Positions 19,759 through 48,850 of a DNA stretch of 64,000 bases are shown in pieces (the stretch's first letter is position 1; each line of letters opens with the position of its first letter). Below the pieces are notes generated by a model. It was not told where the DNA came from, searched no databases, and saw nothing but the letters and a program-made list of their open reading frames with translations. The DNA is taken from positions 1 to 64,000 of the forward strand of contig QKED01000005.1 in NCBI GenBank assembly GCA_003252455.1, written 5' to 3'. The position numbers and the translations under genes are program-made. The DNA comes from Gammaproteobacteria bacterium. Its GTDB lineage: Bacteria; Pseudomonadota; Gammaproteobacteria; Thiohalomonadales; Thiohalomonadaceae.

Positions 19759-20613
19759 ATGGCAGAGGTGAAACGCGGTGGCATGGGCGGCATCCCCTGG
19801 GGGGGCTGGCTGCTGTTCATCCTGACCAGCGCCGCGCTCTGGTTCGGCTGGTCGATCCGCGACGAGCGCTACATCACCGCCGAGTATGGCCTTGGCTACG
19901 CGCTTGGCATCGTCGGCGGCTCGCTGATGCTGCTCCTGCTGCTCTACCCGCTGCGCAAGCACTGGCGCCGCCTGCACCGCGCGGGGCCGATCCACTGGTG
20001 GTTTCGCATCCACATGCTCTTTGGTCTGCTCGGGCCGCTCGCGGTGCTCTACCACGCCAACTTCCACCAGGGCTCGCTCAACAGCACGGTGGCGCTCTGG
20101 GCGATGCTCATCGTCTCTGCCAGCGGGGTGGTCGGGCGCCTCATCTACACCCGCATCCACTACGGCCTCTACGGCAGCCGCATGACGCTGCAAGGGCTGC
20201 GCTCCGACTCCGCCGAGGGGCGTGCCGAGTTCGTGCGCCTCTGCGGCGAGCTGCCCGAGGTGGAGCAGGCGCTCGCCGCGCTCGAAGGGGAGGCGCTGAA
20301 ACCGAGTCGTGGCGTGCTCCAGGGGCTGTGGCGGCGGCTGCGGGTCGGCTTTGTCCTGCGACGTACCCGGCGCCGCGTCACGCCGCGGCTGCTGGTGGCG
20401 TTGGCCGCACAGGGCGGCGAGCCCAAGGCGCAGCGCTCGGCACGCAAGGCGCTCAAGCGGGCCCTGCGCGGCTACTTTGCCAGCGTCTACCGGGTGGCGC
20501 GCCTGGCGCTGTTCGAGCGCCTCTTCGCCTGGTGGCACGTGCTGCACCTGCCGCTCTTTCTGCTGCTGGTGGTGAGTGGGATTACCCACGTCGTCGCCGT
20601 GCACCGCTACTGA
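19759..20613 (+). CDS. Polytopic membrane protein, putative b-type cytochrome
   Basis: This 284-residue inner-membrane protein has about five hydrophobic helices (14-32, 45-63, 83-100, 112-130, 258-282) and a basic cytoplasmic loop (about 135-250). Histidines sit at helix positions suited to haem b: H85, H99 and H103 in the third helix region, and H260, H263, H277 and H282 in the last (WWHVLHLPLFLLLVVSGITH). The pattern resembles cytochrome b561/ferric-reductase-like quinol-oxidising subunits, but no family is firmly recognised. It is the first gene of the run that continues, 18 bases later, with multihaem cytochromes, so it is the likely quinone-pool entry or exit point. Confidence 0.7.
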   Translation: MAEVKRGGMGGIPWGGWLLFILTSAALWFGWSIRDERYITAEYGLGYALGIVGGSLMLLLLLYPLRKHWRRLHRAGPIHWWFRIHMLFGLLGPLAVLYHANFHQGSLNSTVALWAMLIVSASGVVGRLIYTRIHYGLYGSRMTLQGLRSDSAEGRAEFVRLCGELPEVEQALAALEGEALKPSRGVLQGLWRRLRVGFVLRRTRRRVTPRLLVALAAQGGEPKAQRSARKALKRALRGYFASVYRVARLALFERLFAWWHVLHLPLFLLLVVSGITHVVAVHRY

Positions 20614-20631
20614 CGCCCGAGGGAGAGTGCC

Positions 20632-22278
20632 ATGCGTCTCGTTCTGCTCATCGTCGCCCTGCTTAGCTCGTTGTCGCTGCATGCCGCTGGTTTCGAGCGG
20701 CTGCTGATGCCCGGCGAGGTGATCCAGGGGCACGCCAAGTACGAGGCGCAGTGCGAGCGCTGCCACCTCGATTTCGACAAGGGTAAGCAGCGCCGCCTCT
20801 GTCTCGACTGCCATGAGCGGGTGGCGGCAGACGTCGCCGACGGCAAGGGCTTCCATGGGCGCGACCGCGCCGCCTCGCAGCAGGAGTGCCGCACCTGCCA
20901 CACCGACCATAAAGGGCGCGACGCCGACGTGGTGCTGCTCGACCCGGAGCGCTTCGACCACAACCAGACCGACTTCAAGCTGGAAGGGGCGCACCAGGGG
21001 CGCGCCTGCGCCCTCTGCCATCAGGACAAACCCTTCCATGAGGCCCCCAGCGACTGCATCGCCTGCCATAAACAGGACGACCGCCACGCCGGGGCACTGG
21101 GCAAGCAGTGCGCCGACTGCCACAACGTCGAGCGCTGGAAGAAGCAAGAGTTCGACCACGACGCCACCCGTTTCCCGCTGCGCCAGGCGCACACCAAGGT
21201 GGCTTGCGCCGCCTGCCACCCCGGTGAGCGCTATCGCCTCTTCGAGGCCGGTGAGGTGGCGGTGCAGCAGGAGCAGGTCGGGGAGAAAAAGGTGGAGCGC
21301 GTCGAGGCGTGCAGCAGTTGCCACGCCACCGACGACCCCCACGCGGGGCGCTTTGGCCGCGAGTGTCAGCAGTGCCACGCCACAGAGAAGTGGGACAAGA
21401 CGCGTTTCGACCACGACAAACAGACCGCCTGGCGCCTCACCGGTGCCCACCGCATCGAACCACGCGAAAAGGCGCGTGCCTGCAACGCCTGTCACGCCAG
21501 CGACTATCTCGATGCGAGCAGCCGCTGGCCTGACCAGCAGCGCAAGGGGCGTGAGTGCCTCGCCTGCCACCGCAACGACGACACCCATCGCGGGCGCAAC
21601 GGGCAGAACTGCGCCGCCTGCCACACCACTGCACGCTGGGGCGAGAGCGGCTTCAACCACGACCGTGATACGAAATTCCGCCTCACCGGCAAACACGCCG
21701 ACGCCGCCTGCCGCAGCTGTCACCGCGTCGCTCCCAAAGAGGAGAAGCTGGGCCGCGAGTGCGTCGCCTGTCATGCCCTGGAGGACCCGCACCAGGGCAA
21801 CCTGGGCCGCGACTGCGCCAGCTGCCACACCACCGAAGGGTGGGGTGGCAAGGTGCGCTTCGACCACGACTTGACCGCCTTCCCGCTCATGGGCATGCAC
21901 TCGGTGAGCCCCTGCGAGGCGTGTCACGTCGACCCCGACTACAGCCACACCCCCAAGGCGTGCAACGACTGCCACGCCGGTGACGACAGCCACAAGGGTG
22001 TGCTGGGCGAGGCGTGCGCCACCTGCCACAACCCCAACGCCTGGCGCCTGTGGCGCTTCGACCACCAGCGCCAGACCGAGTGGCCGCTGGAGGGGAAGCA
22101 CGCCGGGCTGGTCTGCGCCGCCTGCCACCAAACGCCCGTCGCCGAGCGCCACGGTCAGCCGCCACGCCCGTGCATCGACTGCCATCTGGCCGATGACCGC
22201 CATCAGGGCGAGTTCGGCAGCGACTGTGGTCGCTGCCATGGGGTGGAAGATTTTCGTAAGGTCCGTTTGGACCGCTAG
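20632..22278 (+). CDS. Periplasmic 21-haem c-type cytochrome
   Basis: This 548-residue protein has signal peptide MRLVLLIVALLSSLSLHA and 21 CxxCH motifs, counted by eye. The motifs occur in pairs with intervening histidines (RFDHD, H-x-x-x-C-x-x-CH) that can serve as distal ligands. The pattern FDHD...F-x-L-x-G-x-H-x-x-x-x-C-x-x-CH repeats through the protein, a type known from doubled c7-like or NrfB/DmsE-like chains. It has more charged residues (Lys, Glu, Asp) than the two larger cytochromes downstream, consistent with a soluble periplasmic shuttle between the membrane b-type protein and the outer-membrane module. A GAGGGAGAG ribosome binding site precedes the ATG, and the next gene starts 15 bases after the stop. 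Confidence 0.92.
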   Translation: MRLVLLIVALLSSLSLHAAGFERLLMPGEVIQGHAKYEAQCERCHLDFDKGKQRRLCLDCHERVAADVADGKGFHGRDRAASQQECRTCHTDHKGRDADVVLLDPERFDHNQTDFKLEGAHQGRACALCHQDKPFHEAPSDCIACHKQDDRHAGALGKQCADCHNVERWKKQEFDHDATRFPLRQAHTKVACAACHPGERYRLFEAGEVAVQQEQVGEKKVERVEACSSCHATDDPHAGRFGRECQQCHATEKWDKTRFDHDKQTAWRLTGAHRIEPREKARACNACHASDYLDASSRWPDQQRKGRECLACHRNDDTHRGRNGQNCAACHTTARWGESGFNHDRDTKFRLTGKHADAACRSCHRVAPKEEKLGRECVACHALEDPHQGNLGRDCASCHTTEGWGGKVRFDHDLTAFPLMGMHSVSPCEACHVDPDYSHTPKACNDCHAGDDSHKGVLGEACATCHNPNAWRLWRFDHQRQTEWPLEGKHAGLVCAACHQTPVAERHGQPPRPCIDCHLADDRHQGEFGSDCGRCHGVEDFRKVRLDR

Positions 22279-22293
22279 AGGGAGAGAGCCGTC

Positions 22294-24129
22294 ATGCCGA
22301 GGAGTGTCCGTTCCGCCACGCGCTTTAGCGCGCGTGCGGCCATCCATCCAGCCCTGCTCGGGCTGCTGTTGTTGGCACTGCTGTGGGCCATCGTCACGCC
22401 CCCGGCCAGTGCTGCCGACGCTAGCTTCGACCACCTGAGCGTCGGCTTCGTGCTCGATGGCGCGCACCGCAGCGCCGCCTGTGAGGGGTGCCATGCGGGC
22501 GGACGCTTCAAGGGCACGCCGCGCCGCTGCGACAGTTGTCATGGGGTGGCGCAGATGCCGCGCGACCACATCCCCGCCGGGCGCGACTGCCAGAGCTGCC
22601 ACACCACCGCCGCCTGGGCGCCGGTGGCGCGCTTCGACCACGGCAGCGTGGCCGGTCGCTGCGCCGCCTGCCACGACGGGCGCCGCGCCCAAGGCAAGGG
22701 GGCGCGCCACTTCGCCACCGGCGACGACTGCACCCAGTGTCACACCACTAGCAACTGGAACCTGGGCCGTTTCGACCACAGCAATGTGCAGGGCAACTGC
22801 GCCAACTGCCACAACGGTGTGCAGGCGAGCGGCAAGGGGGCCAACCACTTCACCACCAGTCGGGGCTGCGACGACTGCCACTCCACCCGAGGCTGGAGCC
22901 CGGCGCGCTTCGACCACGCCGGGGTGGTCGGCAACTGCACCAGCTGCCACAACGGCGTGCAGGCCTCGGCCAAGCCCGCCACCCACTTCCCCACCAGCGC
23001 CCCGTGCGAGGAGTGCCACTCTACCAATAGCTGGTTGCCTGCACGCTTCGACCACGCCGGTGTGGTCGGCAACTGCACCCAGTGCCACAACAACTTCAAC
23101 GTCGCCGGTAAGTCCGCCAGCCACTCGCTCACCAGCAACCTGTGCGAGGCGTGCCACACCACCAGCCTCTGGAGCCCGGTGACCCGCGTCGACCACAACG
23201 AGGTGTTCGGCTCCTGCTCAAGCTGCCACAATGGCGTCACCGCCACGGGCAAAAACAGCGGGCATATCACCACCAGCAACCTCTGCGAGGATTGCCACAG
23301 CGCGACCACGTGGACCCCGGCCAAGGTCGACCACGCCCAGGTGAGCGGCAGTTGCGCCAGCTGCCACAACGGCACCACCGCCACGGGCAAGAACAGCGGC
23401 CATATCGCCAGCACCAGCCTGTGTGGGGATTGCCACACCAGCGATGTGTGGGCCCCGGCGCGGGTCGACCACGCCCAGGTGGTCGGCAGCTGTAGCAGCT
23501 GTCACAACGGCGCCACCGCCGAGGGCAAGCCGAGCGACCACGTCGCCACCAACGCCGAGTGCGACCTCTGCCACCGCACCCTCGCCTGGCTGCCCGCGAG
23601 CTTCGACCACAGCAGCGTGGGCAGCAACTGCTCCAGCTGCCACAACGGCGTCACCGCCACCGGCAAGGACGCCACCCACATCGCCACCAGCACGGAGTGC
23701 GGCAGCTGCCATGGCACCAGCGTCTGGCTCCCGGCGCGCTTCGATCACGCCGGGGTCACCGGCAACTGCGCCAGTTGCCACAACGGCACCACTGCCACCG
23801 GCAAGACCAGCGGCCACTTCGTCACCAGCCTGGAGTGCAACAGCTGCCACAGCACCAGCGCCTGGAGCCCGATCAGCTTCCGCCACACCACCGCCAACTA
23901 CCCTGGCGACCACCGCGCGGCCCTGAGTTGCAACAGTTGCCACCGTAGCAACGCGCAGAGCGTGCCCTGGCCCTATGCCGCCTATGCGCCCGATTGTGCC
24001 GCCTGCCACGCGGGCGACTATCGCCCCGGTGAGCATCGCAACGCCTCGGTGAGCAGCCTGCGCAACTGCTCCGGCAGCTGCCACCGCCCAGGGCCTGAAC
24101 ACCGCGTTAGCGACCGCAGTTGGGATTGA
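22294..24129 (+). CDS. 24-haem c-type cytochrome built of di-haem modules
   Basis: This 611-residue protein has an extended signal region (hydrophobic ALLGLLLLALLWAIV, cleavage near ASA 40), 23 CxxCH motifs and one CSGSCH (CxxxCH) motif near the C-terminus. The body is a string of about 46-residue di-haem modules: CxxCHNG-x(10)-H-[FI]-x(5)-CxxCH-x(5)-W-x-P-[AV]-x-[FV]-DH. Each module supplies two extra histidines, enough for bis-His ligation of both haems. The C-terminal domain (NYPGDHR...CNSCH...YAPDCAACHAGDYRPGEHRNASVSSLRNCSGSCHRPGPEH) is shared with the 48-haem paralogue at 26501. Very Ser/Thr/Asn-rich, it probably acts at the cell surface with the barrel encoded 3 bases downstream. Confidence 0.92.
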   Translation: MPRSVRSATRFSARAAIHPALLGLLLLALLWAIVTPPASAADASFDHLSVGFVLDGAHRSAACEGCHAGGRFKGTPRRCDSCHGVAQMPRDHIPAGRDCQSCHTTAAWAPVARFDHGSVAGRCAACHDGRRAQGKGARHFATGDDCTQCHTTSNWNLGRFDHSNVQGNCANCHNGVQASGKGANHFTTSRGCDDCHSTRGWSPARFDHAGVVGNCTSCHNGVQASAKPATHFPTSAPCEECHSTNSWLPARFDHAGVVGNCTQCHNNFNVAGKSASHSLTSNLCEACHTTSLWSPVTRVDHNEVFGSCSSCHNGVTATGKNSGHITTSNLCEDCHSATTWTPAKVDHAQVSGSCASCHNGTTATGKNSGHIASTSLCGDCHTSDVWAPARVDHAQVVGSCSSCHNGATAEGKPSDHVATNAECDLCHRTLAWLPASFDHSSVGSNCSSCHNGVTATGKDATHIATSTECGSCHGTSVWLPARFDHAGVTGNCASCHNGTTATGKTSGHFVTSLECNSCHSTSAWSPISFRHTTANYPGDHRAALSCNSCHRSNAQSVPWPYAAYAPDCAACHAGDYRPGEHRNASVSSLRNCSGSCHRPGPEHRVSDRSWD

Positions 24130-24132
24130 GCC

Positions 24133-26472
24133 ATGCGACAACTACTCCTCCTCATCACCCTCGCGGCGGTGCTACTGCCGGTGCGCCTGTGGGCCGAGAC
24201 GGCCGTACTCGATACCCTAGAGACGCTGGAGAGCGACGCCGGGCCCCTGCTACGCATCCGCTTTACTCGGCCGATGCAGTACCTCAGCCACACCCCGCCG
24301 GACCGTGGCAGCCAACTGCGCATCGAGCTGCGCCCGGTGGGCATGAGCGACGATGAGCCGACCCAGGCCGAGCCGCCCGAGCGTGAGACCCTCGCGCGCC
24401 ATGCCGACGCCCGCGTGCCGGTGCAGCGGGTGAGCTACGAGGAGGTGCTGCACGAGCACAACCTGATCGTCCAGCTGGCCAGCGAGGTGAACTTCGTGGT
24501 GCGTGCAGCGGCGGACTTTCGCGCCATCGATCTGATCTTTCCCGAGAGCGTCGCCGCCCCCGCGCCGGTGGCGCTGTGGGCGGTCAACCTGCGTGATGCC
24601 ACAGGCCCCATCGATACCCGCTACCTGCCCAAGGTGGCGGCGCTGGCCGACGTGAGCCTCTATGTCGCCAGCTTCCGTCAGGCGGGGGGGATGGTCTATC
24701 GCCTGCGTGGCGGACCATTCGCCAGTCAGGCGGAGGCCGAGCGTCGTGCAGCGCGTCTGCGGCGTGACTTCCCTGCCGCGAGTGCGGTGGCCATTGCCCC
24801 CGGCGAGGCGGCGCAGATCCCTCGGTCTAGCGCCACGCCGAGCCCGCTCAGCGAGGCGGACCAGGCGCGTGTGCAGCGTGCCATGCAGCAGGCCAAGAGC
24901 GCCCTGTTGGTGGGCAATCCCGAGCAGGCGGTGCCGCTCTACACCCAGGTGTTGGCGCTGCCCGAGCACGCCGCCAGCGCCGAGGCGCTGGAGCTGTTGG
25001 GGCTGGCGCGCGAGCGCAGCGGGCAGAGCGCCCACGCCAAGGCGGAGTACGAGCGCTATCTGGCGCGCTACCCGCAAGGGGAGGGGGCCGAGCGGGTGCG
25101 CCAGCGCCTCGATGCGCTGGTCACCGCCGCGTTGACGCCCAAGAGCCTGCGCGAGGCCAAACCGCGCGCCGAGGAGCAGCCGGGCTGGGAGCTGTTCGGC
25201 TCGCTGAGCCAGTACTATCGGCGCGATGCGCTCACCCTGGATGGTTTGCCGAACGAGACTACGCGCAGCGAGCTGGCCAGCGACCTCAACCTGGTGGCAC
25301 GCAAGCGCGGCGAGACGACGCTGGAGGAGTTTCGCCTGAGCGGCGGCTATCGCCACGACCTGCTCAGCGATGGCCCCGGCAGCCTCGGCAGTGTCTCCGC
25401 CCTCTATTACGACGTGCGCGCCCTCGACCGCCGTTACCAGCTGCGCCTCGGGCGCCAGAGCAACACCCACCCTGGGGTGATGGGGCGCTTCGATGGCCTC
25501 TTCGGTGCTTATAAAGTGGGCGAGAAGGGGCGCGTCACCGGCGTCGTCGGCGCCCCGGTGGAGCGCAGCGGCGACAACCCGGACGGCAGCCGCCTGCTCT
25601 ACGGCGTCGGCTACGCCATGGATCGGTTGGCCGAGCGCTGGGAGCTGGAGCTCTACCTCATCGACCAGCGCAACCAGGGCATTGAGGAGCGCCGCGCCGT
25701 CGGCAGCGAGCTGCGCTACCTCGACGAGTCGACCACCCTCTTCGCCCTGGTCGACTACGACACCCTGTTCAGCGAACTCAACACCCTGATGCTGCTGGCC
25801 AACCAGCGCGTGGGGGCCGGGAGCCTCAACCTCACCCTGGACCGCCGCCGCAGCCCGACCCTGACCCTGAGCAACGCCCTCATCGGCCAGAGCGTCACCG
25901 ACCGGCTCGACCGCCTCGCCGACCTCTATACCGAGGAGGCGCTGCGCCAACTGGCCCTCGACCGCAGCGCCGAGAGCGAGAGCTACACCGCCGGGGTCAC
26001 CTACCCCTTGAGCGAGCGCTGGCAGTTCAACCTCGACCTCGGCCTCAGCCGTCTCGGCGCCATGCCCGCCTCGGGCGGCGTGGCGGCGGTCGACGCCAGC
26101 GAGCAGCGCGACACCCAGATCCAGCTGGTCGGCAACGGCCTGCTGCTCGACGGCGACATCGGCATCCTCTCGCTGCGCCACTCCGACGCCGATACCAGCC
26201 GCAGCGACAGCCTCACCCTCCAGGGGCGTTACCGCTTCGCCAGCTGGCGCGTCACCCCGCGCCTGCGCTTCGAGCAGCGCCACTACGACGCCTCGCTCAC
26301 CCAGCGCCAGCAGACCTTCTCGCCCTCACTTCAGGCGGAGTACCGCTACGGGCGCAGCCTGTTTATCGACCTGGAGCTGGGCTACGAGAGCACCCGCCGC
26401 GAGCTGACCGACGGCACGCGCCAAGACGAGAGCAGCGACTACCTCTCGCTCGGCTACCGCTGGGAGTTCTAG
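24133..26472 (+). CDS. Outer-membrane beta-barrel with SPOR-like and TPR segments
   Basis: This 779-residue protein has signal peptide MRQLLLLITLAAVLLPVRLWA. Residues 25-150 form a beta-rich periplasmic region. A SPOR-like segment ([38 protein letters not shown], about 177-213) follows, then a TPR pair (about 245-320: GNPEQAVPLYTQVLALPE...LLGLARERSGQSAHAKAEYERYL). From about 350 to 779 amphipathic alternating strands (LSGGYRHDLL, YQLRLGRQSNTH, WELELYLIDQRNQG) end in SLGYRWEF, the terminal aromatic expected for BamA-folded barrels. Placed between two giant cytochrome genes, it is the candidate porin of a porin-cytochrome conduit, functionally like MtrB/PioB. Its periplasmic SPOR/TPR part is not seen in those proteins. 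Confidence 0.8.
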   Translation: MRQLLLLITLAAVLLPVRLWAETAVLDTLETLESDAGPLLRIRFTRPMQYLSHTPPDRGSQLRIELRPVGMSDDEPTQAEPPERETLARHADARVPVQRVSYEEVLHEHNLIVQLASEVNFVVRAAADFRAIDLIFPESVAAPAPVALWAVNLRDATGPIDTRYLPKVAALADVSLYVASFRQAGGMVYRLRGGPFASQAEAERRAARLRRDFPAASAVAIAPGEAAQIPRSSATPSPLSEADQARVQRAMQQAKSALLVGNPEQAVPLYTQVLALPEHAASAEALELLGLARERSGQSAHAKAEYERYLARYPQGEGAERVRQRLDALVTAALTPKSLREAKPRAEEQPGWELFGSLSQYYRRDALTLDGLPNETTRSELASDLNLVARKRGETTLEEFRLSGGYRHDLLSDGPGSLGSVSALYYDVRALDRRYQLRLGRQSNTHPGVMGRFDGLFGAYKVGEKGRVTGVVGAPVERSGDNPDGSRLLYGVGYAMDRLAERWELELYLIDQRNQGIEERRAVGSELRYLDESTTLFALVDYDTLFSELNTLMLLANQRVGAGSLNLTLDRRRSPTLTLSNALIGQSVTDRLDRLADLYTEEALRQLALDRSAESESYTAGVTYPLSERWQFNLDLGLSRLGAMPASGGVAAVDASEQRDTQIQLVGNGLLLDGDIGILSLRHSDADTSRSDSLTLQGRYRFASWRVTPRLRFEQRHYDASLTQRQQTFSPSLQAEYRYGRSLFIDLELGYESTRRELTDGTRQDESSDYLSLGYRWEF

Positions 26473-26500
26473 CACTGCGGCGGGAGCGCCGCTTGGAGTC

Positions 26501-29500
26501 ATGCCGATGCGACACTGGATGCCCCTCGTCCTGCTCATCCTCGCTCTCATGAGCCGAGAATCCGTTGCGCTGCCTGCCGCGTTCGAGGCGCAGCGCTTCG
26601 ACCACATGACCACCGGCTTCACCCTGGAAGGCGCGCATCGCGCGCTCGACTGCGCCAGCTGCCACATGGCGGGACGCTTTCAGGGCACGCCGCGTGCCTG
26701 TGCCACCTGCCATCGCGCCTCGGGCAATGGCCGCATGCCCGCAGACCACGTCGCCACCAGCGGCGACTGCTCCGCCTGCCACAATAGCCAGAGTTGGGCC
26801 GTGGTGGCGCAGGTGGATCACGCGCAGCTCAGCGGCGCATGCAGCAGCTGTCACAACGGACAACGCACCAGCGGCCTCCCGCCACAACACATCCCGGTGC
26901 AGCAGGAGTGCAGCAGTTGCCACCGGACCCGGAGCTGGCGCAGCGCGCGCTTCGTGCACCTGAGCGGGGGCGAGTGCCGGGTCTGCCACAACGGCGTCGC
27001 CGCCACCGGCAAAGGGGCTGCCCACCTGCCCACCGGCGAGGTGTGCGACGACTGCCACCGCACCCGCGCCTGGCATCCGGCACGCGTCGACCACGCGGCG
27101 GTGAGCGCCGCCTGCGCCAGTTGCCACGATGGCCAGCGCGCGAGCGGTCGCCACGCCACCCACATCCCGACCCAGGCTGCGTGTGATGAGTGCCATACCA
27201 GCAGTGGCTGGAGCCCGGCGCGCTTTACTCATGCCAGCGTGACCGAGGGCTGTAGCCGCTGCCACAACGGTGTGCAGGCGAGCGGTAAGGGCGCAACCCA
27301 TATCACTACCGATGCCGCCTGCGACACCTGCCATACGCCCCGTGGCTGGAGCCCGGCGCAGTTCGACCACGCCAATACCACCGCAGCCTGCGCTAGCTGC
27401 CACAACGGTACGCAGGCGAGCGGCAAGGGCGCGACCCATATCCCCACCGAGACCGCCTGCGACGCCTGCCACACGACCCGTGGCTGGAGTCCGGCGCGCT
27501 TCGACCACAGCGGCGTCACCACCGCCTGCGCCACCTGCCACAACGGCATACAGGCGACCGGCAAGGCGGCGGACCATCTCGCCACCGCCGAGCCGTGCGA
27601 TCTCTGCCACACCTCGACGGCCTGGAGTCCCGCACGGGTCGACCACACCCGTGTCAGCGGCGCCTGTGCCAGCTGCCACAACGGCACGCAGGCCAGCGGT
27701 AAGGGCGCGCAGCACATCCCCACCTCAGCGGCGTGCGACGACTGTCACCAAACCAGCGGTTGGAGCCCGGCGCAGTTCGACCATGCCGGGGTCAGCGCAC
27801 CCTGCGCCAGCTGCCATAACGGTGTGCAGGCCACGGGCCGGGCGGCCACGCACCTCCCCACCAGCACCACCTGCGACGACTGCCACACCCCCCAGGCCTG
27901 GAGCCCGGCACGCTTCGACCACGCCAGTGTCAGTGGCGCGTGTGTCGAGTGCCACAACGGTGTGCAGGCGAGTGGTAAGCCCACCACCCACGTCCCCACC
28001 AGCGCCACCTGCGACAGTTGCCACGGCACCCGCGGCTGGACCCCCGCACGCTTCGACCACGGCGGGGTCAGCGCGGGCTGCGCCACCTGCCACAATGGGG
28101 TTCAGGCGAGCGGGCGCAGCCGTACGCACCTCGCCTCGCTCGGGGTGTGCGAGCTGTGCCATACCAGCACGGCATGGTCTCCGGCAGGCTTCGACCACAC
28201 CGCCGCCATCGGTAGCTGTGCCAGCTGCCACAACGGCACCCAGGCGACGGGTAAGACCACCACCCACCTGCCGACGAGTGCGGCCTGCGACGACTGCCAC
28301 ACGATCAGTGGCTGGACTCCAGCGCACTTCGACCACAGCGGCGTCACCACCGCCTGCGCCACCTGCCACAACGGCACCCAAGCGACGGGTAAGACCACCA
28401 CCCACCTGCCCACCAGCGCCGCCTGCGACGACTGCCACACGATCAGTGGCTGGACCCCGGCGCGCTTCGACCACAGCGGCGTCACTACCGCCTGCGCCAG
28501 CTGCCACAACGGCACCCAGGCGACGGGTAAGGGCGCCGCCCACCTGCCGACGAGCACCGCCTGCGACGACTGCCACACGATCAGCGGCTGGACCCCGGCG
28601 CGTTTCGACCACCGCGGCGTCACTACCGCCTGCGCCAGCTGCCACAACGGCACCCAAGCGACGGGTAAGACCACCACCCACCTACCGACCAGTGCCGCCT
28701 GCGACGACTGCCACGTGATAAGTGGATGGACCCCGGCGCGCTTCGACCACAGCGGCGTCACTACCGCCTGCGCCAGCTGCCACAACGGCACCCAAGCGAC
28801 GGGTAAGACCACTACCCACCTGCCCACCAGCGCCGCCTGCGACGACTGCCACACGATCAGTGGCTGGACTCCAGCGCACTTCGACCACAGCGGCGTCACC
28901 ACCGCCTGCGCCAGCTGCCACAACGGTATCCAGGCGCGTGGCAAGAGCGCCCTACACATCCCCACCAGCGCGGCCTGCGACGACTGCCATACCACTATTA
29001 GTAGTAGCTGGACCCCCGCCCGCTTTGACCACACGGCGGTCAGCACCAGCTGCGCCAGTTGCCACAACAACGCGATTGTGGTCGGCAAGGGGAGCGGACA
29101 CATCGCCACCAGCGGTGCGTGTGACGCCTGCCATGGCACCTCTGGCTGGGTCCCGGCCCAGGTCGACCACGCCTGGGTCAGCGGTAGCTGCGCCAGTTGC
29201 CACAACGGCACCACGGCCCAGGGGCGGCCAGCGGCCCACATCGCCACGTCGCTGCTCTGTGAGGCGTGCCACAGCCGTCAAAGCTGGACGCCTGCCAGTG
29301 TGGATCACGCCGAGGTGAGCGGCAGCTGCGCCAACTGCCACAACGGCTCCACGGCACAGGGGCGTGCCTCGAACCACATCAACAGCTCGGCCCTGTGCGA
29401 CGACTGCCACCTGACCAGTGACTGGTTGCCCGCCAGGGTGGATCACGCCCAGGTGATCGGTAACTGTCTCACCTGTCATAACGGGGCGGTGGCCACCGGA

Positions 29501-29965
29501 ATGGGGACGGGCCACATCACCACCACCGCGAGCTGCGACAACTGCCATACCACCCTCGCCTGGCTCCCCGCGCGCTTTGACCACGCCCTGGTGAGTGGTC
29601 GCTGCGACGGTTGCCACAACGGCGTGGGCGCCACCGGCAAGGGCGCATCGCACATGCTCACCGCCATCGACTGTGCCGAGTGCCACCGGGTGGGGGCCTG
29701 GAGTCCGTCGAGCTTCCGCCATCAGGGTGCCAACTACCCAGGCGATCACGCAGGTAGCCCGGCCTGCCGCGCCTGCCACACCGGCAATAGCGACAGTATC
29801 CCCTGGCGCTTCCCCGCCTACGCACCGGACTGCGCCGCCTGCCACGCGGCCGACTACAAGCCCGGCGAGCATCGCAACGCCTCGGTGAGTAGCCTGCGCG
29901 ACTGCTCGGGCAGTTGTCACCGCCCCGGCCCAGAGCACCGCGCGGGTGATCGGGATTGGGACTGA
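26501..29965 (+). CDS. Giant 48-haem c-type cytochrome of tandem di-haem modules
   Basis: This 1154-residue exported protein has signal peptide MPMRHWMPLVLLILALMSRESVA. By-eye count gives 47 CxxCH plus one CxxxCH (CSGSCH at the C-terminus), that is 48 haem sites, about one per 24 residues. The chain is some 22-24 modules of 46 residues (138 bp): C-A-[ST]-CHNG-T-Q-A-[TS]-GK-x(4)-H-[IL]-PTSAAC-DDCH-x(3)-GW-[ST]-PA-[RQ]-FDH-x-G-V. Two non-haem histidines per module allow bis-His ligation throughout. Six modules near the middle are almost identical in DNA. N- and C-terminal domains match the 24-haem paralogue. It likely forms an extracellular or outer-surface haem wire fed through the barrel. ATG 26507 is an alternative start. 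Confidence 0.93.
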   Translation: MPMRHWMPLVLLILALMSRESVALPAAFEAQRFDHMTTGFTLEGAHRALDCASCHMAGRFQGTPRACATCHRASGNGRMPADHVATSGDCSACHNSQSWAVVAQVDHAQLSGACSSCHNGQRTSGLPPQHIPVQQECSSCHRTRSWRSARFVHLSGGECRVCHNGVAATGKGAAHLPTGEVCDDCHRTRAWHPARVDHAAVSAACASCHDGQRASGRHATHIPTQAACDECHTSSGWSPARFTHASVTEGCSRCHNGVQASGKGATHITTDAACDTCHTPRGWSPAQFDHANTTAACASCHNGTQASGKGATHIPTETACDACHTTRGWSPARFDHSGVTTACATCHNGIQATGKAADHLATAEPCDLCHTSTAWSPARVDHTRVSGACASCHNGTQASGKGAQHIPTSAACDDCHQTSGWSPAQFDHAGVSAPCASCHNGVQATGRAATHLPTSTTCDDCHTPQAWSPARFDHASVSGACVECHNGVQASGKPTTHVPTSATCDSCHGTRGWTPARFDHGGVSAGCATCHNGVQASGRSRTHLASLGVCELCHTSTAWSPAGFDHTAAIGSCASCHNGTQATGKTTTHLPTSAACDDCHTISGWTPAHFDHSGVTTACATCHNGTQATGKTTTHLPTSAACDDCHTISGWTPARFDHSGVTTACASCHNGTQATGKGAAHLPTSTACDDCHTISGWTPARFDHRGVTTACASCHNGTQATGKTTTHLPTSAACDDCHVISGWTPARFDHSGVTTACASCHNGTQATGKTTTHLPTSAACDDCHTISGWTPAHFDHSGVTTACASCHNGIQARGKSALHIPTSAACDDCHTTISSSWTPARFDHTAVSTSCASCHNNAIVVGKGSGHIATSGACDACHGTSGWVPAQVDHAWVSGSCASCHNGTTAQGRPAAHIATSLLCEACHSRQSWTPASVDHAEVSGSCANCHNGSTAQGRASNHINSSALCDDCHLTSDWLPARVDHAQVIGNCLTCHNGAVATGMGTGHITTTASCDNCHTTLAWLPARFDHALVSGRCDGCHNGVGATGKGASHMLTAIDCAECHRVGAWSPSSFRHQGANYPGDHAGSPACRACHTGNSDSIPWRFPAYAPDCAACHAADYKPGEHRNASVSSLRDCSGSCHRPGPEHRAGDRDWD
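28231..28960 (+). repeat. Six 138-bp tandem repeats inside the giant cytochrome gene
   Basis: The string CAACGGCACCCA (last copy CAACGGTATCCA) starts at 28231, 28369, 28507, 28645, 28783 and 28921, exactly 138 bases apart, and intervening DNA is nearly identical. Each unit encodes one di-haem module, so the array keeps frame when units are gained or lost. This is the signature of recent slippage or unequal recombination. Confidence 0.92.
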
Positions 29966-30045: not shown

Positions 30046-30537
30046 ATGAAGACCCCACTACTCGCGCTCGCCTCGTTACTGCTTTGGTCGGGCCTGACCC
30101 AGGCCGCCCCGACCCACGGGGAGACCTTCAAAGACTGGACCACCTACTGTGAGAAGAACGAGGCGCAGGGCACCGAGCAGTGCTTCAGCGTGCAGAACAT
30201 CACCCTCACCGAGACCCAGCAGCGCCTGCTCAACGTCGCCGTGGGCCACCAGCCGCAGAGCGGCCAGCCCATCGTCATCCTGACCCTGCCGCTGGGCATC
30301 TCCCTGCCGCCGGGGGTAAAGGTGCAAGTGGATAAAGGGGAGGCGTTCACCTTCCCGGTCGAGCGTTGCGATTCCAGCGGCTGCATCGCTGTCTTCCCCC
30401 TGCAGGCGGGGCTGCTCACCGCGCTCAAGCGCGGCAGCCAGGCGGTGGTGACCTTCTTCGACGCCACCCGCAAGGGTATCGGCGTACCGGTCTCGCTCTC
30501 CGGCTTTACCGCCGGTTACAAGGCCCTCGATGAGTGA
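30046..30537 (+). CDS. IalB-family (invasion-associated locus B) exported protein
   Basis: This 163-residue protein has signal peptide MKTPLLALASLLLWSGLTQA. The mature part has the IalB layout: FKDWTTYCEK...EQCFSVQNI, VILTLPLGISLPPGVKVQVDKGEAFTFPVERCDSSGCIAVFPL, LLTALKRGSQAVVTFFDATRKGIGVPVSLSGFTAGYKAL. Four cysteines (in TYCEK, QCFS, ERCDSSGC) are placed for two disulfides, as in the family. Role in non-pathogens is unknown; it is probably a periplasmic stress or envelope protein. It follows the giant cytochrome by 80 bases and has its own ribosome binding site AAGGATG. A GGCCCCT/AGGGGCC stem (30544-30572) without a T-run lies after the stop. Confidence 0.85.
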   Translation: MKTPLLALASLLLWSGLTQAAPTHGETFKDWTTYCEKNEAQGTEQCFSVQNITLTETQQRLLNVAVGHQPQSGQPIVILTLPLGISLPPGVKVQVDKGEAFTFPVERCDSSGCIAVFPLQAGLLTALKRGSQAVVTFFDATRKGIGVPVSLSGFTAGYKALDE

Positions 30538-48441: not shown

Positions 48442-48458
48442 AGTGCGTCGCCATTGCG

Positions 48459-48850
48459 CCCGGAGCTTCAAGCCAACGGCCTGAACGAGGCCCCGCCTGG
48501 AGCTTCAAGCCAACGGCTTGAACGGGGCGGGTGGAGATGCCCGATGCCGCACGCACAAGCCGTTGGCTTGTGGCTCCAGCGCCCGGCCAGCTCGGAGCTT
48601 CAAGCCAGCGGCCTGAACGAGGCCCTGCCTGGAGCTTCAAGCCAACGGCTTGAACGGGGCGGGTGGAGATGCCCGAGGCCGCACGCACAAGCCGTTGGCT
48701 TGTGGCTCCAGCGCCCGGCCAGCCCGGAGCTTCAAGCCAACGGCTTGAACGAGGCGAGGCCTGGAGCTTCAAGCCAACGGCTTGAACGGGAGCGAGGTCA
48801 AAGGCCGCTCACACAAGCCGTTGGCTTGTGGCTCCAGCGGCTCTAGCCAC
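48459..48850. repeat. Three 132-bp tandem repeats, each with palindromes, inside the fbp operon
   Basis: CGGAGCTTCAAGCCA starts at 48461, 48593 and 48725 (period 132). Each unit has two AGCTTCAAGCCAACGGCTTGAA palindromes and a reverse-oriented CACAAGCCGTTGGCTTGTGG. AAGCCAACGGCTT is thus present many times in both orientations and can fold into strong hairpins. A frame can be read through it, but the translation is simply the repeat and has no domain. Confidence 0.9.

Follow-up and report, generated by a model that had tools for sequence, protein, structure and literature searches.

Porin-cytochrome clusters of the PCC3 type are the described systems closest to the locus studied here. In the original description (He et al. 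2017, PMC5566968), PCC3 is defined by an inner-membrane protein of about 300 aa with five transmembrane helices, which bears SGXXG on the fourth helix and WX3HX13H on the third and fifth. The published periplasmic cytochromes of such clusters have a median of 21 haems. Their outer cytochromes cover a wide range of haem numbers and are predicted to be long and mostly linear, according to the Gallionellaceae survey (PMC10734462). PCC3 is regarded as a candidate electron conduit (PMC12442390). On the other hand, both PCC3 clusters of Sideroxydans ES-1 are down-regulated on Fe(II) (PMC8788666), which counts against the conduit model.

In the window (the whole stretch of 64,000 nucleotides that was analysed), positions 19759-29965 hold a PCC3 porin-cytochrome cluster, to judge from its sequence, and hence a putative extracellular electron conduit of known kind. 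The genes encode, in order, the inner-membrane protein, a 21-haem periplasmic cytochrome, a 24-haem outer cytochrome, a predicted porin and a 48-haem outer cytochrome (Table 1). The first product has the hydrophobic regions and motifs of the PCC3 inner-membrane protein and is probably a quinone-side protein with two b haems. The periplasmic protein has the many haem motifs typical of its class, and both outer cytochromes combine very many motifs with internal repeats, their extracellular location being putative. The porin matches OMP_b-brl weakly, its 28.5 bits falling short of the cut-off of 28.7, and its homologues stand at the same position beside such cytochromes in many members of the class.

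Table 1. Features of the PCC3 cluster and of the repeat array in its second outer cytochrome gene.
Feature	Position	Strand	Description
PCC3 conserved inner-membrane protein	19759..20613	+	284 aa; five TM-like (hydrophobic) regions; SGVVG at 122; WX3HX13H at 81 and 259
Periplasmic multi-haem cytochrome	20632..22278	+	548 aa; 21 CXXCH; ~204-bp three-haem modules
First extracellular-type cytochrome	22294..24129	+	611 aa; 23 CXXCH + 1 CX3CH = 24 haem motifs
PCC3 outer-membrane porin (porin-like)	24133..26472	+	779 aa; SPOR and TPR segments precede barrel
Second extracellular-type cytochrome	26501..29965	+	1154 aa; 47 CXXCH + 1 CX3CH = 48 haem motifs; N-terminal signal-like sequence
N-terminal cap	26501..26839	+	Signal-like sequence plus irregularly spaced first haems; resembles start of related outer cytochromes
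Five-unit array	28217..28906	+	Near-identical in-frame 138-bp units; pairwise DNA identity 88-96%; mid-gene
Array unit 1	28217..28354	+	Last 72 bases same as in unit 5
Array unit 2	28355..28492	+	
Array unit 3	28493..28630	+	
Array unit 4	28631..28768	+	
Array unit 5	28769..28906	+	Last 72 bases same as in unit 1
Diverged sixth unit	28907..29050	+	144 bp (48 aa); array end, not a near-identical copy
C-terminal cap	29672..29965	+	Irregular haem spacing (31, 22), terminal CX3CH; resembles end of related outer cytochromes

Ahead of the barrel, the porin has a SPOR segment at aa 176-218 and a TPR segment at about aa 252-326. Among eight aligned PCC3 porins, six match SPOR and five match TPR, which suggests a peptidoglycan-facing anchor. 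Directly downstream of the cluster, we notice an IalB-family protein (30046-30537), followed by a large ORF resembling glutamate synthase.

The middle of the second outer cytochrome is a chain of one repeated element. All 96 cysteines of the product are assigned to its 48 haem motifs, and between haems 4 and 44 successive motifs lie an almost constant 23 residues apart, giving di-haem units of 46 residues and 138 bases. The periodicity of the gene is far above chance expectation. TRF reported a period-138 array at 28216-29134 with a score of 750, as well as weaker, longer arrays spanning the whole gene, while the top-scoring segment at offset 138 covered 28220-28926, that is 5.1 copies, or five units and about 20 bases. 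The original prediction had placed six phased, nearly identical units at 28231-28960. Their phase is borne out, and so is the preservation of the frame, since every unit lies in frame within the ORF and has no stop. However, only five units are near-identical, and the span given begins 14 bp into unit 1 and runs on into the diverged sixth. Elsewhere in the window, a 132-bp tandem repeat of 2.9 copies occupies 48458-48839, with REP-like palindromes around CAAGCCAACGGCTTG.

Within the array, 25 of 138 positions are variable, with a pairwise dS of 0.14-0.40 and a dN of 0-0.08, and the longest exact repeat in the gene is 79 bp. The 138-bp units outside the array share 51-80% of their bases with one another, and their pairwise dS ranges from 0.36 to above 2, with most values at 0.4-2. 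Read from these nucleotide sequences, the five-unit array is the most recent addition to a longer module chain.

Each 46-aa array unit contains two CXXCH motifs and two invariant spare histidines, H17 and H40, in agreement with the claim that one unit encodes one di-haem module. When 13 two-unit windows taken from the two outer cytochromes are aligned, the CXXCH pairs and one tryptophan per unit are invariant, and H17 and H40 are invariant or nearly so. A spare histidine is likewise present in 928 of the 960 inter-haem segments of the relatives. Most likely, the two motifs and the two spare histidines of a unit complete the bis-histidine ligation of two haems. AlphaFold2 gave low-confidence models, with a mean pLDDT of 39 for six units and 52.5 for two. 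Because these models are poor, the predicted linear shape of the outer cytochrome rests on published predictions (PMC10734462). In a sequence search of solved structures, no PDB chain matched the outer cytochrome at E 0.001.

For comparison with relatives, a class-wide search with the porin gave matches in 44 of 369 genomes, and the flanking DNA was read in one genome per species. Searches at the order and genus levels added no close relative for the window's genus, which comprises one genome. The complete periplasmic genes encode 21 haems at 28 of 31 loci; the other three encode 18, 24 and 24, which corresponds to one three-haem module of about 204 bp less or more. This near-constancy stands in contrast to the sequences themselves, the protein of the window sharing only 39-49% identity with its counterparts at the other loci.

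The complete outer genes carry between 11 and 70 haem motifs, the lowest counts including genes that look frameshifted or cut. We defined as canonical those outer genes in which all motifs are CXXCH except for one terminal CX3CH or CX4CH (n=26). The haem total is even in 24 of these 26 (p ~1e-5, with related genomes treated as independent). At 29 of 33 loci, the outer gene exceeds its periplasmic partner in internal DNA self-similarity (p ~1e-5, an indicative value, the relatives not being phylogenetically independent), and internal copies of at least 85% identity occur in 12 outer genes and in no periplasmic gene. Within the outer gene, the best-matching copies tend to be central (median relative position 0.55), and the commonest distance between them is 276-279 bp, equal to two units or four haems. 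At L050 (11260-18286), in the single-contig genome G053, two adjacent outer cytochromes with 24 and 70 haem motifs stand beside the porin. The outer cytochrome at L108 (888-2822) of G389 is without the usual C-terminal cap and is perhaps a frameshifted or truncated gene.

One change of length could be followed between sister species. G041 and G188 are congeners whose porins are 95% identical; their periplasmic cytochromes are 97.9% identical, align gap-free across the haem region and have 21 haems each. The outer cytochromes differ by exactly 279 bp, which is one in-frame block of 93 aa and four haems (20 vs 24 haems). The junction falls within a short stretch common to both repeats. We considered a fresh duplication and rejected it, because the block is merely 71-75% like its neighbours; for the same reason, the loss of an old block in the G041 lineage is the better reading. 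Meanwhile, the outer cytochrome gene at L066 (5162-7816) of G016, a genome of the window's family, contains an in-frame duplication of 108 bp, of which the copies are 97-98% identical. This duplication is out of register and causes an odd count of 35 haems. The outer gene of G328, a single-contig genome, contains an exact run of 172 bp at offset 129. In the congeners G075 and G211, with porins 94% identical, both outer cytochromes have 18 haems, and length change is therefore not constant. The idea that gain or loss of units changes the chain by two haems without a frameshift is supported by the 279-bp difference and by counts that mostly step by two. Our findings support, from gene comparison, a length that is adjustable on evolutionary time, with gains and losses between species.

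The original prediction went further and suggested phase variation. As a contingency locus, the array would expand and contract often within a population, and cells would differ in the length of their wire. Direct repeats with exact tracts of up to 79 bp can recombine, the identical ends of units 1 and 5 point to fairly recent exchange, and fresh duplications exist in the relatives. Even so, we consider such switching improbable. A rapidly switching locus should consist of near-perfect repeats, and the divergence among the array units is too high for that; the equal counts of G075 and G211 and the probable age of the block lost in G041 also speak against fast change. Neither would the array switch expression on and off, since the length of each unit is divisible by three and all steps stay in frame.

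An assembly artefact, in which the array was collapsed or wrongly joined from short reads and the true number of units is different, has a slightly smaller probability still. The draft genome that contains the window comprises 118 contigs, and in draft assemblies of the relatives a contig end truncates 11 of 49 outer genes, compared with 1 of 33 periplasmic genes (Fisher p 0.02), so haem counts from draft genomes deserve care. However, every unit of the array is distinct, and k-mers of at least 81 resolve all units present; the contig extends far on both sides, on to 73,951 bp, and near-identical units also occur in genomes assembled as one contig, G328 and G053 among them. The warning that short-read assembly may have miscounted the units thus keeps a small part of its force: the risk for the units seen is low, and a perfectly identical extra copy could have been collapsed. 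That the units are alike through protein-level constraint and codon bias, without recent duplication, is very improbable: the Cys, His and Trp positions are indeed fixed in all units and the G+C content is 65%, but the non-array units are far less alike under the same constraint (dS mostly 0.6-2, several-fold above that of the array), and the array units have synonymous variants in common.

Taking all parts jointly, we regard it as quite probable that the gene encodes a second PCC3 outer cytochrome with a chain of di-haem modules, that its array arose by in-frame duplication, and that its length varies slowly between species. In this model of slow variation, a single module would have been tandemly duplicated in frame to give the five units, which point substitution then separated, probably with exchange between units in addition. 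A four-gamete test with the array cut in the CXXCH register put 18 of 28 site pairs in conflict; the conflict vanishes once the cut points are moved downstream by half a unit, where few informative sites remain. We rejected this test as proof of gene conversion, as the conflict may merely reflect that the duplicated register is shifted. Unequal exchange between repeats would lengthen or shorten the outer chain and leave it unbroken. Since one module carries a full set of ligands and its length in bases is divisible by three, whole modules can be gained or lost in frame, in steps of two haems (often four in the relatives). The haem stacking of OmcS and OmcE recurs in pairs (PMC9473688), and a similar paired stacking would account for the two-haem steps. 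If secreted and loaded with haem, the proteins may pass electrons along a path from the quinone pool through the inner-membrane protein, the 21-haem periplasmic cytochrome and the porin to the outer cytochromes, in either direction. We speculate that the periplasmic chain bridges a fixed gap, which would keep its haem number constant.

A wider reading is that PCC3 consists of two wires with opposite length rules, a periplasmic one of three-haem modules locked at 21 haems and an outer one of two-haem modules whose length in-frame recombination is free to change. We offer it tentatively and give it somewhat less than even weight. If true, the periplasmic wire would be fitted, as it were, to the periplasm's width, and the outer wire would be an evolvable reach outside the cell. 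Variation of haem number in PCC3 has already been published (PMC5566968, PMC10734462). Our literature search, in the portions of the sources available, returned no account of the contrast between a locked inside and a variable outside, or of gain and loss of units at the DNA level in PCC3; on unit-number variation in multi-haem cytochromes, it returned nothing specific. The steps that now become visible in DNA are fresh in-frame duplications, one probable sister-species loss and a quantum of two haems. The contrast with the 21-haem partner leads to a testable idea, namely that only the inner of the two wires has a length matched to the periplasm. Meanwhile, outer cytochromes of varied length form a natural series for measuring conduction against haem number.

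Several known systems share single traits with this locus. MtrCAB, MtoAB and PioAB also combine a porin with multi-haem cytochromes across the outer membrane; however, theirs are decahaem proteins of fixed size, unlike the outer cytochrome here. Against TIGR03508 (MtrA/MtoA/DmsE decahaem), the outer cytochrome scored 189.0 bits over ten repeated stretches, a partial match that stays below the curated cut-off of 192.2. The nanowires OmcS, OmcE and OmcZ are likewise dense chains of c haems; they are polymers of small subunits, whereas here one polypeptide would bear the whole chain. Borg elements contain frame-preserving tandem repeats within genes, some of them in multi-haem cytochromes, but Borg repeats are mostly disordered and without cysteine (PMC9879509), whereas at this locus the haem module is what repeats. 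PCC3 is the closest match: as described (He et al. 2017, PMC5566968; PMC10734462), it shares the gene content, the 21-haem periplasmic cytochrome, a very low residue-to-haem ratio, repeats within the outer cytochrome and a variable haem number. Compared with the PCC3 clusters described there, the present locus differs in that two outer cytochromes, of 24 and 48 haems, flank the porin, and in the young, homogeneous array of five units.
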